Source: Candidatus Nanopelagicaceae bacterium
GTDB taxonomy: Bacteria; Actinomycetota; Actinomycetes; Nanopelagicales; Nanopelagicaceae
DNA: 32,368 nucleotides
Reading direction: 5' to 3'
NCBI GenBank assembly: GCA_947460855.1
Contig: CANHGU010000005.1
Coordinates: 1 to 32,368, forward strand
Positions 1-22,966 of this stretch are shown one piece after another. The notes beneath the pieces were generated by a model. The model made no database searches and was not told where the DNA came from. It worked only from the letters and a program-made list of their open reading frames with translations. The translations under genes and the position numbers were made by a program. Each line of letters opens with the position of its first letter. Position 1 is the first letter of the stretch.

Positions 1-452
1 ACTGGCTCAGCTTGCGCTACAGGTGCTTCTTCAACTACCGGCGCACTCTTAGCTGCTAAACGTTCTGCCGCTTTTTTCTTTAAAGTTGTCGCGCCATCTG
101 CTGGCTCATTCATCGCCTCTTTAACAGCGGCTTCATAAGCAACTCGCTTATCGATTCGTACTGGTTGTGGCTTTAATGTTCCCTCAGTTCCTGGTAGACC
201 ATTCGCTTTTTGATAGTCACCAGTAATTTTTAGTAGCGCAGTCACTGCCTCAGTTGGTTGTGCGCCAACTCCAAGCCAGTATTGAACGCGATCTGAGTTA
301 ACCTCAATTAATGAAGGCTCAGAAGCTGGTGAGTAGCGACCAATTTCTTCGATTGCTTTTGAATTACGAGCAGATCGAGAATCGGCAATTACGATACGAA
401 AATGAGGTGTGCGAATCTTTCCTAGACGCATTAACTTAATCTTTACTGACAC
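1..452 (-). CDS. rpsP: 30S ribosomal protein S16 (3' end outside window)
   Basis: Small-subunit ribosomal protein that binds 16S rRNA early in 30S assembly. About 150 codons are visible; the C-terminus runs off the left edge. The N-terminus [20 protein letters not shown] and the following [19 protein letters not shown] segment are classic S16. The GTG start has a GGGAG Shine-Dalgarno about five bases before it. After residue ~85 the protein continues into an Ala/Lys/Glu-rich extension, as in other actinobacterial S16 proteins and unlike the ~82-residue E. coli form. It is the downstream neighbour of ffh, separated by a 157-base structured leader, and rimM/trmD/rplS would be expected further left (family knowledge). 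Confidence 0.96.
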
Positions 453-489
453 AAAACTCCCTATAGAAAATTATTCGGCTTTATCTTCA

Positions 490-593
490 GTAAACAGCGG
501 GGGCGTTTACATCCAGAGCTAACCTTGCGGACAAATTTTGCTACGGGTTAGAGGGTCCCACTAGCAGGAGGCTAATCTTGCCAGCAGGTGGCA
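490..593 (-). promoter_or_regulatory. Hairpin-rich leader between ffh and rpsP
   Basis: On the minus strand this 157-base gap contains a chain of short inverted repeats. They are TGCCA-N5-TGGCA (579-593), ATTAGC-CTCCT-GCTAGT with one wobble (560-576), CTAACC-N21-GGTTAG (519-551), and GTAAACGC-CCCC-GC-T-GTTTAC with one bulge (490-510). The last lies about 40 bases upstream of the rpsP start. No run of T follows any stem, so a simple intrinsic terminator is unlikely. It may be a structured mRNA leader of the rpsP operon or a processing region. Function is inferred only; I see no confident -35/-10 pair. Confidence 0.4.
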
Positions 594-609
594 TTAATCC
601 CAAATTGGC

Positions 610-2043
610 CTAATTTCCCTCTTCCAATGCCCGCTTTGCTGGGTTGCCCGAGCGAGATTTTTTCTTAAAACTTTGCTCTTGTTGTTTTGGTTTCACAGGT
701 TGACCCATGCCAGGTAAGGATCCAAGTCCGGCCGGCATATTTCCACCTCTCATTTGCTTCATTACTTTTTGGGCTTGAGCAAAGCGCTCCACCAATGAAT
801 TAATTTCAGAAATGGCACGACCACTACCCCGTGAAATTCGAGCACGCCTAGAGCCATTTAATACTTTTGGATTACTCCTTTCCAGTGGTGTCATCGATTC
901 AATAATTGCTCTAGTTCTTACTAACTCAGTGTCATCAAAATTATTAAGCTGCTTCTTTAATCCCACTGCATTTGGTAATAAACCAAGTAATTTACTGATG
1001 CTTCCCATATTTTTCATTGCCTCAAGTTGGGATAAAAAGTCCTCAAATGTGAACTCCTCTCCTTTATTAAACTTATCTTCAAGTTTCTTCGAAGCTTCCT
1101 CTGGAATTGCTCGTTTAGCACTTTCGGCTAAAGAGGCGATATCTCCCATACCAAGAATTCGAGATGCCATCCGATCAGGATAAAATAAATCGAAATCATT
1201 AATTTTTTCCCCAGTAGATGCAAAAATAATTGGCTTTTTTGTAACTTCAACTATGGATAGTGCAGCGCCACCTCTGGCATCACCATCTAATTTTGTGAGT
1301 ACTACCGCATCAAATCCTACCCCTGCTAAAAATGCTTGAGCTGTAACAACTGCGTTCTGACCAATCATTGAGTCAACAACAAAAAAAGTTTCGTTTGGAT
1401 TCACCGTAGCTTTGATACTATTTAATTGCTGCATTAGCTCTTCATCAATCCCAGTGCGTCCAGCCGTATCAATGATCACAAAGTTGTGCAATTTATCCTT
1501 AGCAAAATTAAGAGATAACTTTGCAACACTTACTGGATCACCTACTCCATTGCCAGGCTCTGGTGCAAAAACTGGGACATTCACTGAATTCCCAACAACT
1601 TGAAGTTGGGTCACAGCGTTTGGGCGCTGTAGATCAGCGGCGACTAATAGTGGAGTATTTCCATCTGCTTTTAAATAATTAGCTAACTTGCCAGCAAGTG
1701 TGGTCTTTCCAGCTCCTTGTAAACCAATTAATAAAATTACAGTTGGTGAAGTTTTAGCATAACGAACTCTTCTAGATTCCCCACCAAGTATTTGAGTTAA
1801 CTCAAGATTGACTATCTCAAATATTTTCTGAGCTGGGTTAATACTTTTATTTATTTCTTCCGAACGTTCAACGGCTTTCTCGTAAATACGATTTGAAAAA
1901 GAGTCTGCGACTGATAAGGACACATCAGATTCGAGTAATGCATTTTTGATCTGCGAAGTGAAAGTTTTTAGATCTGACTCAGAAACCTTGCCACGCAGGC
2001 CAGAGAAGATGGAGCTAAATCTCTGGCCCAACGCTTCGAACAT
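610..2043 (-). CDS. ffh: Signal recognition particle protein Ffh (SRP54)
   Basis: GTPase that binds signal sequences of nascent chains together with 4.5S RNA and docks on FtsY at the membrane. At 477 residues it has the full N-G-M layout. The helical N domain is residues 1-90. The G domain has GLQGAGKTT (107-115), DTAGR (192-196), TKLDGDARGG (250-259) and the closing DRMASRILGMGD (290-301). The M domain starts near 325, with the RNA-binding NGSRRARISRGSG (396-408) and a short Met/Gly-rich tail. The start codon follows glnB by 21 bases. No Shine-Dalgarno is visible; a TAAGAT hexamer lies six bases before ATG. Its receptor gene ftsY lies in the same block, with amtB and glnB between. Confidence 0.98.
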   Translation of the reverse strand: MFEALGQRFSSIFSGLRGKVSESDLKTFTSQIKNALLESDVSLSVADSFSNRIYEKAVERSEEINKSINPAQKIFEIVNLELTQILGGESRRVRYAKTSPTVILLIGLQGAGKTTLAGKLANYLKADGNTPLLVAADLQRPNAVTQLQVVGNSVNVPVFAPEPGNGVGDPVSVAKLSLNFAKDKLHNFVIIDTAGRTGIDEELMQQLNSIKATVNPNETFFVVDSMIGQNAVVTAQAFLAGVGFDAVVLTKLDGDARGGAALSIVEVTKKPIIFASTGEKINDFDLFYPDRMASRILGMGDIASLAESAKRAIPEEASKKLEDKFNKGEEFTFEDFLSQLEAMKNMGSISKLLGLLPNAVGLKKQLNNFDDTELVRTRAIIESMTPLERSNPKVLNGSRRARISRGSGRAISEINSLVERFAQAQKVMKQMRGGNMPAGLGSLPGMGQPVKPKQQEQSFKKKSRSGNPAKRALEEGN

Positions 2044-2049
2044 GGAGGC

Positions 2050-2055
2050 ATCTTA
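2050..2055 (-). promoter_or_regulatory. Candidate -10 element for a leaderless ffh transcript
   Basis: TAAGAT is separated from the ffh ATG by exactly six bases (GCCTCC), the spacing expected if transcription starts at the start codon itself. There is no purine-rich ribosome binding site in the gap, and no recognisable -35 hexamer. This is inference from position and sequence only. Confidence 0.3.
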
Positions 2056-2064
2056 CATTTTTAT

Positions 2065-3704
<1,640 letters not shown>

Positions 3705-3725
3705 AACAGCTCCAATTTCGCTATT

Positions 3726-3754
3726 TTTATAGCACTAAGAGAAAAGAGTGGAAA
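3726..3754 (-). promoter_or_regulatory. Candidate amtB-glnB promoter
   Basis: An extended -10, TGC followed by TATAAA (3726-3731), sits about 17 bases downstream of TTTCCA (3749-3754; four of six matches to TTGACA). Transcription would start near 3720, giving a leader of about 15 bases that includes the GGAG ribosome binding site. Inferred from consensus only. Confidence 0.4.
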
Positions 3755-3813
3755 CCTCGTCGTTGAGATGGAGTAACTATGCTCAATCTGGGTTAAATCA
3801 GGGGGCTACTTAG

Positions 3814-3829
3814 GTTTCTTTCCTGTGAC
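3814..3829 (-). promoter_or_regulatory. GlnR-like half-site upstream of amtB
   Basis: The minus strand reads GTCAC-N6-GAAAC, an exact match to the gTnAC-N6-GaAAC unit described for actinobacterial GlnR nitrogen regulators. Related, weaker units flank it: GTAAC-N6-TTAAC (3845-3860, abutting the ftsY stop) and GTTAC-N6-TCAAC (3762-3777, just upstream of the candidate -35). Control of amtB-glnB by a GlnR-type regulator would make biological sense, but a glnR gene is not in this window and short AT-rich matches can occur by chance. Confidence 0.35.
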
Positions 3830-3860
3830 AGTTTTGGCTTGATTGTTAAAAGTATGTTAC

Positions 3861-4697
3861 TTAATTGAACAAACCTTGGATATAGGCAGTCGAATCAAAG
3901 GGTGAAAGGTCTAAGACGCCTTCACCTGTTCCCACAAATTTAATAGGAAGGCCGGTCTGCTTTTCAATTGCAAGAGCTACCCCACCTTTTGCTGACCCAT
4001 CTAATTTGGTGATTATAAATCCAGTAACACCAACTGCGTCAATAAATACTTTCGCTTGATTAATTCCATTTTGCCCAGTCGTTGCGTCTATAACTAGTAA
4101 AACTTCATCGACTTGTGAATGTTTATTTGTTACTCGCACTACTTTTCCAAGCTCATCCATCAAGTCCTGCTTATTATGCAATCTTCCAGCAGTATCAATG
4201 ATTAAGTATTGGAAATCTTCAGCTTTTGCCTTTGTCACGGCGTTAAAGGCCACCGATGCTGGGTCACTGTTGGCCTCCCCGGTAACTACTGGAGTCTTAA
4301 TGCGCTCCGCCCAGGTTTGAAGCTGTTCAGTTGCTGCAGCCCTAAATGTATCCGCAGCCGCAAGCAATACTTTATTGCCATCATTGATTAATTTAGTAGC
4401 AATTTTTGCAGTTGATGTAGTTTTGCCTGTTCCATTTACTCCAACTATCAAAATAGTTGTTAGGCGATCATGTTCTTTTTTTAGCGCTCTGCTCTTATCA
4501 CTTAGCCAACTGCTAACTAATTTAGTTATAGAGAGAACTGCATCATCAGCTTTCATCGATTTAGCTTGTTCAATTACTTCATCAACTAGGTTTGCTCCTA
4601 GATCGGAAGAAATTAATGTTCCTCTTAATTGCTCCCACTCGTCTGGGGAAACTGAACCAGATCGAATAGCGGTAAAAAGGCGCTTAAATAAACTCAT
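3861..4697 (-). CDS. ftsY: Signal recognition particle receptor FtsY (short form)
   Basis: Membrane-associated SRP receptor GTPase, partner of Ffh. It is only 278 residues. It starts MSLFKRLFTAIRSGSVSPDEW, so the acidic A domain found in many bacteria (197 residues in E. coli) is absent, and the N helix with LFKRLF may itself contact lipid. The NG domain is intact: GVNGTGKTT (86-94), AADTFRAAATEQL (114-126), DTAGR (168-172), TKLDGSAKGG (230-239) and the closing VGTGEGVLDLSPFD. It lies seven bases downstream of smc and ahead of amtB, the usual actinobacterial order. Confidence 0.97.
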   Translation of the reverse strand: MSLFKRLFTAIRSGSVSPDEWEQLRGTLISSDLGANLVDEVIEQAKSMKADDAVLSITKLVSSWLSDKSRALKKEHDRLTTILIVGVNGTGKTTSTAKIATKLINDGNKVLLAAADTFRAAATEQLQTWAERIKTPVVTGEANSDPASVAFNAVTKAKAEDFQYLIIDTAGRLHNKQDLMDELGKVVRVTNKHSQVDEVLLVIDATTGQNGINQAKVFIDAVGVTGFIITKLDGSAKGGVALAIEKQTGLPIKFVGTGEGVLDLSPFDSTAYIQGLFN

Positions 4698-4704
4698 TTA
4701 CTTT

Positions 4705-7700
4705 TTAAGATACAGCATCAACTTCGCGAATGCGCTGTGAAATAACTTCGCTGACTCCATCGCCTCGCATAGTCACTCCATATAGTGCATCGGCAATCTC
4801 CATCGTACGTTTCTGGTGGGTAATGATAATTAGTTGAGATTTTTCACGAAGTTCTTCAAATACTCCAAGTAGTCTGCCCAAGTTTGTATCATCTAAAGCT
4901 GCTTCAACCTCATCCATTACGTAAAATGGTGAAGGTCTGGCTTTAAAAATAGCGATTAGAAGTGCAACTGCAACTAGTGATCGCTCACCACCAGATAGAA
5001 GTGAAAGGCGTTTTACCCGTTTTCCAGGTGGGCGAGCTTCAACATCAACGCCAGAAGTTAACATATCGGATGGGTTGGTAAGAATTAACTTTCCATCTCC
5101 ACCTGGGAATAATCGTGCAAAAACAATTTCGAATTCTCGCGCAGTATCCTCATATGCTTGCGTAAATATTTGCTGCACTCGATCATCTACTTCTTTTATG
5201 ATGTCTAATAAATCTTTCTTTGTTTTCTTTAAATCCTCTAATTGCTCTGCTAGGTAACGCAATCTCTCCTCAAGAGATGAGTACTCTTCAAGAGCTAATG
5301 GATTAATTTTTCCAAGCAAGGTTAAAGATCGCTCTGCTTGGGCAAGACGCTTTTCTTGTTGATCTCTGCGATAAGGGATCAATTCACCTGGAACAAATTC
5401 TCCTTGCTCATTCTCGTAGAAAGTTGGAACATCATTAATTGGACCATATTCATTTGCTAATGTTTGAATATCAATTCCAAGCTCTTCAACCGCCTTATTT
5501 TCAATTTGTTCAATCCGCATACGATGTTCAGCTCTTGCAATTTCATCTTTATGAACACTTGAAGTTAAGCGCTCTAGCTCAGTTGCTAACTCTCTGCTTA
5601 CGGTGCGCAAACTTAATATCTCACCCTCTCGAGCTGATCGAGAAAGTTCTAATCTCTCCCGCTCGGCACCAGCGCGCAAAATAGATGACTCTATTTGAAT
5701 CAATGTCTCATAAGCTGCATCGGCAATTTGTTGGGCTGTAATAGCTGCTTGTGCTCGATTTTCGCGACGAGAAATTGATCTTGAAGCCGCATCACGCTCA
5801 GCAATTGCTTGATTCTCTAAAGTCTGTGCTCTTTGCTCAATAGCATCTTTACGCTCTTCGATGGTTCGAAGATTAAGTCTTGCTTCAACCTCTTTGGATC
5901 TCGCTGTAGAAACTTGAGAACGCAGATCCTCTAAATGAGTTAGATCAGGCTCCTGCGGTGATTGATGTGACTCAAATTGCGCGATTGCTGCAGCTAAATC
6001 TCGTTCATCAGATGTTCTTTGCTCAGTGGCCACCATTAACGCTGAAGATATTCGATCCAACTCCTCACCTGAGTTCTTAACATTCTGCCCAGCCACAGCT
6101 AACTGCTCAGCAAGCCCAGTCATGGCAGCATCGGACTCATTAAGTTTTGATAGCGCAACTTCAAACTCTTTATTAACTTTATTTAATACCTCTTGAGCGG
6201 TACTTAACTCAAACTTGGCTCGATCACAATCTGCTGAAACCTTTACAAGTTCTGACTCGCAGGTTGAAGTTAGTGAGGCAATTTTTTCAATAAGGGTGGT
6301 GTTGCCTGACCCCACAATAATCTCTTGTATCTCTTTAAATGCTGTCAATCTTCCCAATGATCCAGCTCTTAGCTTTTCAGCAGATTGTAATTTCTCAGTA
6401 TGAGTTTTTATATTTGCTTCGGATGCTTTAACCTCTAATTTTAATTTTTCAAATATGGCATCTAACCCAGGCTCAGATGCAGTAAGTGAGGAAATTTGGG
6501 TCTCAATTACAGCAAAACTTTCGCGATGATTTTTCAATCTATCTTGAACTAAATCGCGGGCAGTAGTTAAACGATTTATCTCACCAGTAGTTGCATCAAT
6601 CCTTGATCTCAGGCCATTTATGTGGCCCTCTTGCCTGGCAGTTCCTTCACGCTGATCAGCTATTGCTCTTAGTGAAGCTGAAACTCGATTTTCTTCTAGC
6701 GCTAGTTGATCTTCAATTGCTTTTAACGAGTTAGAGTCAACATTTAACTGTTCTTGAGAAATTTTCATCTGCGCTGCAAGTGTTGCCTCTTCCTTACGTA
6801 GTAACTGCGCCTCTTCATCTAATGCTTTTGGATCTCGACCAGTTGCCTTTGCCTCTTCAGCCTCTTCAGCTAAAAATCTAGAACGTTCGGAGGATAAATT
6901 TTGTACACCACGAATTTGTTCACGCTGAGCAGTTAGTCGGTAGAAATTTTCTTGAGCAGCGATAAGTTGTGGATTCTCACTTGCTGCTATCGCATCTAAT
7001 TCAATCTCTCGATCTCTAGCATTTTTTAACTCTCGCTCAACCTGATCTTTGCGATCTCTTAAAACAGTTTCATCAGCAACTTCAACTTCCATCTCCGAAC
7101 GCATGCGAATTAAATCATCGGCAAGTAAACGCAACTTGGCATCTCTCACATCTGATTGAATTATGGATGCTTTACGGGCCACTTCGGCCTGTTTGCCTAA
7201 TGGCTTTAACTGCCTGCGAAGTTCCACTGTTAAATCCTGAATTCTTGCAAGATTAGTTTGCATTGAATCTAACTTTCTAATTGCTTTTTCTTTGCGCTTA
7301 CGATGCTTAAGCACACCAGCAGCCTCTTCAATAAAAGCGCGCCGCTCCTCTGGGTTAGCCAACAAAATCGCATCTAGTTGTCCCTGGCCAACAATTACAT
7401 GCATCTCGCGGCCAATGCCACTATCACTTAGCAACTCCTGAATATCTAACAATCTTGTGGTTTCGCCATTTAACAAGTATTCAGATGAACCATTTCTAAA
7501 CAAAACACGAGTAATTGTTACTTCAGAAAAATCAATAGGTAATACACCATCAGCATTATCGATTGTTACCGATACCTCTGCTCGCCCTAATGGCGCCCTA
7601 CCTGATGTACCGGCAAAAATAACATCTTCCATTTTTCCACCACGTAAGGATTTGGCGCCCTGCTCACCCATTACCCAAGAGAGAGCATCTACTACATTTG

Positions 7701-22797: not shown

Positions 22798-22870
22798 TAG
22801 CTCCGAGGGGATTCGAACCCCCGTAGCTGGCTTGAGAAGCCAGAGTCCTAGGCCACTAGACGACGGAGCC
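22798..22870 (-). tRNA. tRNA-Glu (anticodon CTC)
   Basis: 73 bases without encoded CCA. The acceptor stem is GGCTCCG with CGGAGCT (a G-U pair at position 1-72). T8 and A14 are in place. The anticodon stem CTGGC/GCCAG encloses the loop TTCTCAA, so the anticodon is CTC, reading GAG. The T arm is GGGGG-TTCGAAT-CCCCT. It follows gltX and tRNA-Gln, and ends six bases from the convergent IclR gene stop. Confidence 0.97.
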
Positions 22871-22894: not shown

Positions 22895-22966
22895 CTGGGG
22901 TACCAGGACTCGAACCTAGACAAGCTGAACCAGAATCAGCTGGGCTGCCAATTACCCCATACCCCA
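22895..22966 (-). tRNA. tRNA-Gln (anticodon CTG)
   Basis: 72 bases without encoded CCA. The acceptor stem TGGGGTA/TACCCCA is perfect, with the U1-A72 pair typical of tRNA-Gln. The anticodon stem GCTGA/TCAGC holds the loop TTCTGGT, giving anticodon CTG for CAG codons. The T loop is TTCGAGT. It lies between gltX and tRNA-Glu on the same strand. Confidence 0.97.

Follow-up and report, generated by a model that had tools for sequence, protein, structure and literature searches.

The 157-base gap between ffh and rpsP, at positions 453–609 on the minus strand of the window (the whole stretch of 32,368 nucleotides that was analysed), appears to hold a promoter of rpsP followed by a structured 5′ leader of two hairpins, P2 and P3. 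Judged by comparison of genomes, the leader is a genuine and widely conserved element that recurs before rpsP in most actinobacterial families sampled. Our best reading, to which we assign a probability of about one half, is that ribosomal protein S16, or an early assembly complex, reads the leader for autoregulation. The hairpins, their loops and their link to rpsP across the class are evident from the compared sequences, from which we infer transcription from TGGCAAGAT and a regulatory function. The window belongs to an assembly of 733 kb in 67 contigs that is 57% complete and whose size, base composition and relatives point to the freshwater acI group; the features of the locus are the following:

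610–2043, minus strand: ffh (SRP54), the upstream neighbour (PF00448, PF02978, PF02881).
599–604, minus strand: −35-like element TTTGGG, at a near-constant distance to the −10-like element in the family, with variable bases between.
575–583, minus strand: extended −10-like element TGGCAAGAT, conserved as TGGCAnnAT; predicted promoter of rpsP.
539–566, minus strand: hairpin P2 (TGCTA..GGG, ACCCTCTAA, CCC..TAGCA) with CCCTCT in its loop (548–556); covariation in alignments A3 and A5, closed loop.
490–510, minus strand: hairpin P3 (GTAAAC, GCCCCCGCT, GTTTAC) with a C-rich loop (496–504); 92.7% of cells paired and five of six pairs changed on both sides in A3.
477–524, minus strand: suggested lower arm of P3 (GGTT..TCT / AGA..AGCC), from the minimum-energy fold of the predicted mRNA and folds of relatives.
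457–462, minus strand: Shine-Dalgarno sequence AGGGAG, invariant in 24 of 24 leaders of the genus.
3–452, minus strand: rpsP (ribosomal protein S16), GTG start codon at 452–450; PF00886, E 7.3e-22; truncated by the window end.

Our comparison set comprised 60 genomes of the window's family, 24 of them from its genus, and 39 genomes from 35 other families of the class. Within the genus, rpsP was found in 24 of 25 genomes, each time with ffh directly upstream, a gap of 156–165 bases and the same blocks. Long invariant blocks run through the gap across these 24 genomes, next to ffh proteins that are 73–83% identical to that of the window. Because the folding of a single sequence proved no more stable than that of dinucleotide shuffles, both for the gap with its flanks (z +0.81; 159 of 200 shuffles at least as good) and for positions 463–570 (z −0.50; 54 of 200), it provides no evidence, and comparison does.

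Comparison re-drew the structure that the sequence-only reading had proposed, a chain of four hairpins filling the gap. These had not been itemised and were taken as TGCCA/TGGCA (579–593), TTAGC-CTCCT-GCTAG with a T-G wobble (561–575), CTAACC/GGTTAG (519–551) and GTAAAC/GTTTAC (490–510). Fully paired in the 24 genus genomes were GTAAAC/GTTTAC in 24, TTAGC/GCTAG in 14, CTAACC/GGTTAG in 10 (best of four registers) and TGCCA/TGGCA in one; among 26 leaders of other genera the TTAGC/GCTAG stem was found in none and TGCCA/TGGCA in one. Thus only one of the four stems, P3, survives, and two of the others overlap the promoter-like block. The gap is there at its full 157 bases, but its 5′ third resembles promoter DNA and the repeats in it probably lie outside the mRNA. 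The CTCCT loop, put forward as complementary to a Shine-Dalgarno sequence, is not conserved as such, since the corresponding position reads CTCC in 13 of 50 family leaders, as against none of 150 other leaders of the class.

What comparison strongly bears out is the broader claim of a structured RNA on the minus strand tied to rpsP: covariation among relatives, whose absence had been named beforehand as grounds for giving the leader up, was found for P3 and for the re-drawn P2. The outer five pairs of P2 (TGCTA...TAGCA, with GGG/CCC inside) are complete in 18 of the 24 genus genomes, and four of the five form in the other six. Alignment A3 consists of 16 selected leaders from four genera aligned by sequence alone with MAFFT; these are the 23 leaders of A2 minus seven whose P3 loop has an extra base and which MAFFT had set out of register. 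For the 14 pairs of P2 and P3 its covariation score was 0.450 versus 0.132 in shuffled alignments, none of 500 reaching as high, and sliding the structure along the alignment gave 0.038–0.115. Ten pairs changed on both sides. The share of paired cells was 92.7% for P3 and 64.1% for P2, the lower value being partly due to a shifted register of P2 in the window's genus. Alignment A5 (50 leaders, 48 distinct) scored 0.509 versus 0.141 shuffled; as it was fitted to a model it is biased in favour of the structure, and at some P2 pairs most of its leaders are unpaired. In both cases the shuffles leave the relatedness of the leaders in place, and G-U counted among the accepted pairs. RNAalifold gave no useful consensus over 115 class leaders and none over 50 family leaders.

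An alignment-free control, in which 3′ arms were swapped between dereplicated leaders, agreed with the covariation. In the family, P2 folded at −12.1 kcal/mol versus −8.1 with swapped arms and P3 at −11.1 versus −6.5; in the class the values were −18.4 versus −12.6 for P2 and −16.4 versus −12.1 for P3, and swaps that equalled or bettered the real arms had a median share of 0.05–0.10. These figures come from a repeat of the control, a first version having picked the P3 site by best stem, which favours real pairs. The P2 loop was closed and unpaired in 15 of 15 family leaders versus 57 of 210 swapped ones, and in 53 of 75 versus 459 of 1500 in the class. For the P3 loop the corresponding counts were 14 of 26 versus 165 of 520 in the family and 30 of 79 versus 437 of 1580 in the class, the latter a small margin that is weak by single-sequence folding. 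A covariation-supported secondary structure, one mark of a ribosomal-protein leader (r-leader), is therefore present.

Other elements considered in the leader were set aside. In L158 and similar leaders TAGAGGGTCG, after the −10, can pair with the P2 loop CGACCCTCTA as an alternative to P2; an alignment of 20 Micrococcales-like leaders folded in this way, with the P2 loop joined to the 5′ end, and by eye it is not kept elsewhere. Pairing of the P3 loop with the Shine-Dalgarno sequence amounts by eye to two to four pairs that are not maintained between genera. A conserved small open reading frame was likewise rejected, the three frames being open in 4, 2 and 5 of 50 family leaders and in 52, 65 and 85 of 150 class leaders, mostly GC-rich ones.

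The 5′ third of the gap is likely the rpsP promoter, as suggested by a block at 604–575 on the minus strand that consists of TTTGGG, 15 variable bases and TGGCAAGAT. TGGCAnnAT is present in 51 of 51 family loci and TGGCAnn[AC]T in the nine loci added later (see below), even where the hairpins are gone; in other families of the class, TGGCAnnAT is matched by 26 of the 39 loci, and inspection by eye shows TGGCA in another 12. In the family, TTTGGG or a variant of it (TTTCAC, TTTTGG and similar) usually stands 15 bases before TGG and hence 18 before the hexamer. The TGGCA block is retained without hairpins in locus L029, with 25 bases from hexamer to start codon, and in L137, with 39 bases. A block that outlasts the hairpins and a spacer of variable bases amount to promoter-like behaviour, and transcription would be expected to start at about 574–564. 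A generic promoter scan of the window did not list the TGGCAAGAT block. With transcription starting there, the first of the four repeats described above, part of the second and a start-codon helix proposed by RNAalifold (see below) would fall outside the likely mRNA. A closing helix of ATTTGGG with CCGAAT, seen by eye, was dropped, the promoter reading accounting for ATTTGGG.

The leader is found throughout the family. Among 201 family genomes, 188 have rpsP, and from these we took 27 loci beyond the genus, from 12 genera; 26 of them carry the blocks, L029 being the one without, and ffh lies upstream in 26. Of 201 genomes that were sampled from the order and searched with model R1, 180 gave a match to the leader (those listed all belong to the window's family). 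They cover 11 of 16 genera, with one match per genome except for two in G124, and in six genomes compared by eye (G001, G003, G010, G026, G030, G080) the match lies directly before rpsP. Because R1 matched nothing in five sampled genera (g5, g11, g12, g13 and g14), nine loci of g4, g5, g10, g12 and g14 were added. Six of these have CCCTCT and the C-rich P3 loop in place (one each of g4, g10 and g14 and three of g5), and the three g12 loci (L292, L295, L296) retain TGGCAAGAT without CCCTCT. Over all 60 family loci, 56 have CCCTCT upstream of rpsP, and 15 of 17 genera are represented among them. A weak R1 match within the window itself (5263–5371, minus strand, E 0.28), away from rpsP, was taken as chance.

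Beyond the family, model R2 matched 43 of 394 class genomes. Of these, 40 belong to the window's family, and G465, from a different family, has its match adjacent to rpsP (E 0.0055); the other two were judged to be chance. The weak matches in G559 and G384 and a second one in G051 do not adjoin rpsP. As R2 is blind to divergent copies, the regions upstream of rpsP were sampled directly in 40 genomes of other families, of which L121 was dropped because a contig end leaves 59 bases, so that 39 from 35 families remain. In 35 of these 39 regions TGGCA, the P2 loop CCCTCT (CTCTCT in L133) and a P3 loop like CCCAC follow one another in this order, a triple that occurred in none of the dinucleotide-shuffled 39 regions in each of 50 rounds. 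In L113 the −10 is altered, and both loops can be made out by eye; L124, L129 and L137 are without the leader and retain the TGGCA block together with rpsP. Natural losses can thus be seen in L029, L292, L295 and L296 of the window's family and in L137 of another, in each of which the TGGCA block is kept and the CCCTCT hairpin gone.

A pattern scan of named genomes, made without reference to rpsP, returned at least 119 stretches. Among the matches listed, 115 of 119 lie 22–61 bases before rpsP, three are too near the end of their stretch and one (L218) has no rpsP match; the 80 titles among them are all actinobacterial and include Arthrobacter, Microbacterium, Actinomyces, Brevibacterium, Prauserella, Amycolatopsis and Kineosporia. 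In the 62 cases among the matches listed in which ffh was found, it is located upstream in the same orientation, separated by anything from 0 to more than 6000 bases, and this variable distance indicates that the leader goes with rpsP. A stricter pattern had matches in 7 genomes, every one a class member, among 396 of the phylum and in none of 358 outside it, figures that are a floor because the window itself was also missed. A consistent position upstream of a ribosomal-protein gene, a further mark of r-leaders, is accordingly seen in 56 of 60 family and 35 of 39 class loci.

No known RNA family accounts for the leader. A search of Rfam returned no family at its gathering score near rpsP in the window (whose tRNA genes lie elsewhere) or in 29 related loci. 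Matches below threshold were judged to be chance. In the window these were Rubella_3 (E 0.64) and ceN106 (E 7.4), and 17 class loci gave four, the best being CcsR1 (E 0.065) on the strand opposite the L135 leader; 12 relatives gave none at E up to 1. The 6C RNA of actinobacteria, a separate small RNA, resembles the leader in having two hairpins with C-rich loops, but no Rfam match to 6C was obtained here and the leader is tied to rpsP. The window also holds TGGGACC, which recalls the T-box bulge TGGNACC; unlike a T-box, it has no Rfam match, and the letters fall within the P2 stem and loop, where many leaders of other genera have GGGGCCC instead.

In the literature searched, which included few subscription papers, no rpsP leader is described in actinobacteria, the only candidate being the predicted S16 r-leader of Flavobacteria, for which a table in Eckert and Weinberg (2020; PMC7247131) lists rpsP and rimM and gives Flavobacteria as the lineage. 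As that paper describes it, this too is a structured RNA directly upstream of rpsP, with S16 proposed as its ligand because no other ribosomal protein is regulated, but it belongs to another phylum, and the comparison is one of descriptions, not of structures. The L31 and L17 r-leaders of actinobacteria covered there are elements of the same kind in related bacteria, but stand upstream of rpmE and rplQ, not rpsP (PMC7247131). The present leader, for which Rfam gave no family at threshold, is best read as a new candidate for autoregulation by S16. A 2024 review (PMC10931766) notes, in its passage on the subject, that there is no information on the regulation of the trmD operon, which includes rpsP, a rarity among ribosomal-protein operons. 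With the leader kept across Actinomycetes, including the cultured Arthrobacter, Microbacterium and Amycolatopsis, this question becomes directly testable.

S16 acts in the folding of the 5′ domain of the 30S subunit. Transcription from TGGCAAGAT would yield an mRNA that carries P2 with its near-invariant CCCUCU loop, P3 with its C-rich loop and the ribosome-binding site. Both hairpins would be recognised by unbound S16 or by an early assembly complex that contains it, and the bound leader would slow translation of rpsP, so that S16 output would track ribosome assembly and the protein may limit its own production. No terminator-like site was found in window 1–2400, which makes control of translation or mRNA stability more likely than attenuation. 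Several observations count against this reading: no conserved helix over the Shine-Dalgarno sequence or start codon through which repression would act was found among the leaders compared, P3 is weak by single-sequence folding in the wider class, and the CCCTCT hairpin is missing from L029, the three g12 loci, L124, L129 and L137. At the sequence level, too, the leader shows no likeness to 16S rRNA that would suggest a copied S16 site, and CCCTCT is absent from both mature 16S sequences taken. The best local matches were a stretch on the Shine-Dalgarno side (10 of 300 shuffles as good) and one of 11 columns (262 of 300). The former, AATTTTCTATAGGGAG at window 457–472, resembles the DNA at the 16S start in G001, AATTTTCTATGGAGAG. 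Resemblance to the rRNA site is described as common in r-leaders, not as required (PMC7247131).

The candidate ligand is favoured to be S16 on account of gene order. G304, from a different family, has its genes arranged as rpsP, khpA, rimM, trmD, rplS, lepB and rnhB, and khpA also directly follows rpsP in G030, G080, G026 and G032. This arrangement, together with two conserved C-rich loops that a KH domain could suit, makes KhpA a possible reader of the leader, as might be another RNA-binding protein or a small RNA. The usual rpsP operon is split in the window's genus, with rpsP-lepB-rnhB-dprA in one place and rplS-khpA in another: in G001 rpsP is followed by lepB, rnhB and dprA, and rplS and khpA lie together about 295 kb away (G001:C1:425281-426014; the locus L272 is from this genome), and in G002 and G003 they are likewise together and far from rpsP. 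In all three genomes khpA thus stands beside rplS, but the leader stayed with rpsP, and R1 sees a single match and no second copy in each. KhpA is encoded in 11 of 11 genomes searched, so its presence alone does not discriminate. A leader kept with rpsP apart from rplS and khpA favours S16 by the reasoning from the “only ribosomal gene” that is applied to ligands by Eckert and Weinberg (2020; PMC7247131), and we regard a reader other than S16 as unlikely. It is similarly doubtful that the leader works free of any ligand, its hairpins stabilising the mRNA or tuning initiation and its loops being kept by nuclease protection or by an accessible ribosome-binding site. The lack of a conserved switch with the Shine-Dalgarno sequence and the lineages without hairpins would suit such a role, but near-invariant loop letters on freely changing stems suit a recognised RNA better than a plain stabiliser.

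Three further explanations appear far less probable than these. If the gap worked as DNA alone, through a promoter and operators, and had no role as RNA, the promoter-like character of its most conserved 5′ blocks would be explained, but P2 and P3 stay paired through two-sided changes, with G-U counted as a pair, and pair worse when their arms are swapped, and we give this reading very little weight. A switch that hides the start by pairing the first rpsP codons with TGCTGGCA or with the P3 3′ strand TTTACTGA draws on the best RNAalifold consensus for the 24 genus sequences, which contains the TGCTGGCA helix, and on the longest exact inverted repeat of the region, eight bases of TTTACTGA (494–487) with TCAGTAAA (449–442, rpsP codons 2–4); runs of 5–8 bases occur in 24 of 24 genus leaders. 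The RNAalifold helix, however, has a covariation term of −0.5, and of its 30 pairs one shows changes in both partners. TGCTGGCA shares bases with the −10-like block and would probably not be part of the transcript, and in 26 leaders of other genera the P3-strand runs are 3–5 bases, the same as in swapped pairs, so that a start-codon switch seems very improbable. Equally hard to credit is that the P2 and P3 loops sense ribosome assembly by pairing with unassembled 16S rRNA instead of a protein. In the 5′ domain of 16S, GCCCTCTC is complementary to GAGAGGGC near 293 and TCCCCACT to AGTGGGGA near 352, and a change of the P3 loop from CCCACT to CCCGCT would retain G-U pairing with 16S. Scrambled words, however, are also found in 16S (13 of 15 for AGAGGG, 3 of 6 for GTGGGG, 21 of 30 for AGTGGG and 13 of 168 for GAGAGGGC), which leaves this complementarity unsupported. 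Autoregulation by a ribosomal protein, as the sequence-only reading had tentatively supposed, stays the best reading, with binding by S16 as its conjectural part.

Elsewhere in the window, P-II-like, ammonium-transporter-like and FtsY-like open reading frames, named by eye, lie upstream of ffh (2065–4697, minus strand), and two tRNA genes are found at 22798–22870 and 22895–22966, also on the minus strand. A run of 17 bases that covers the end of ffh and the −35 region (598–614) is repeated exactly at G000:C10:1745-1761 (E 0.037), probably by chance.
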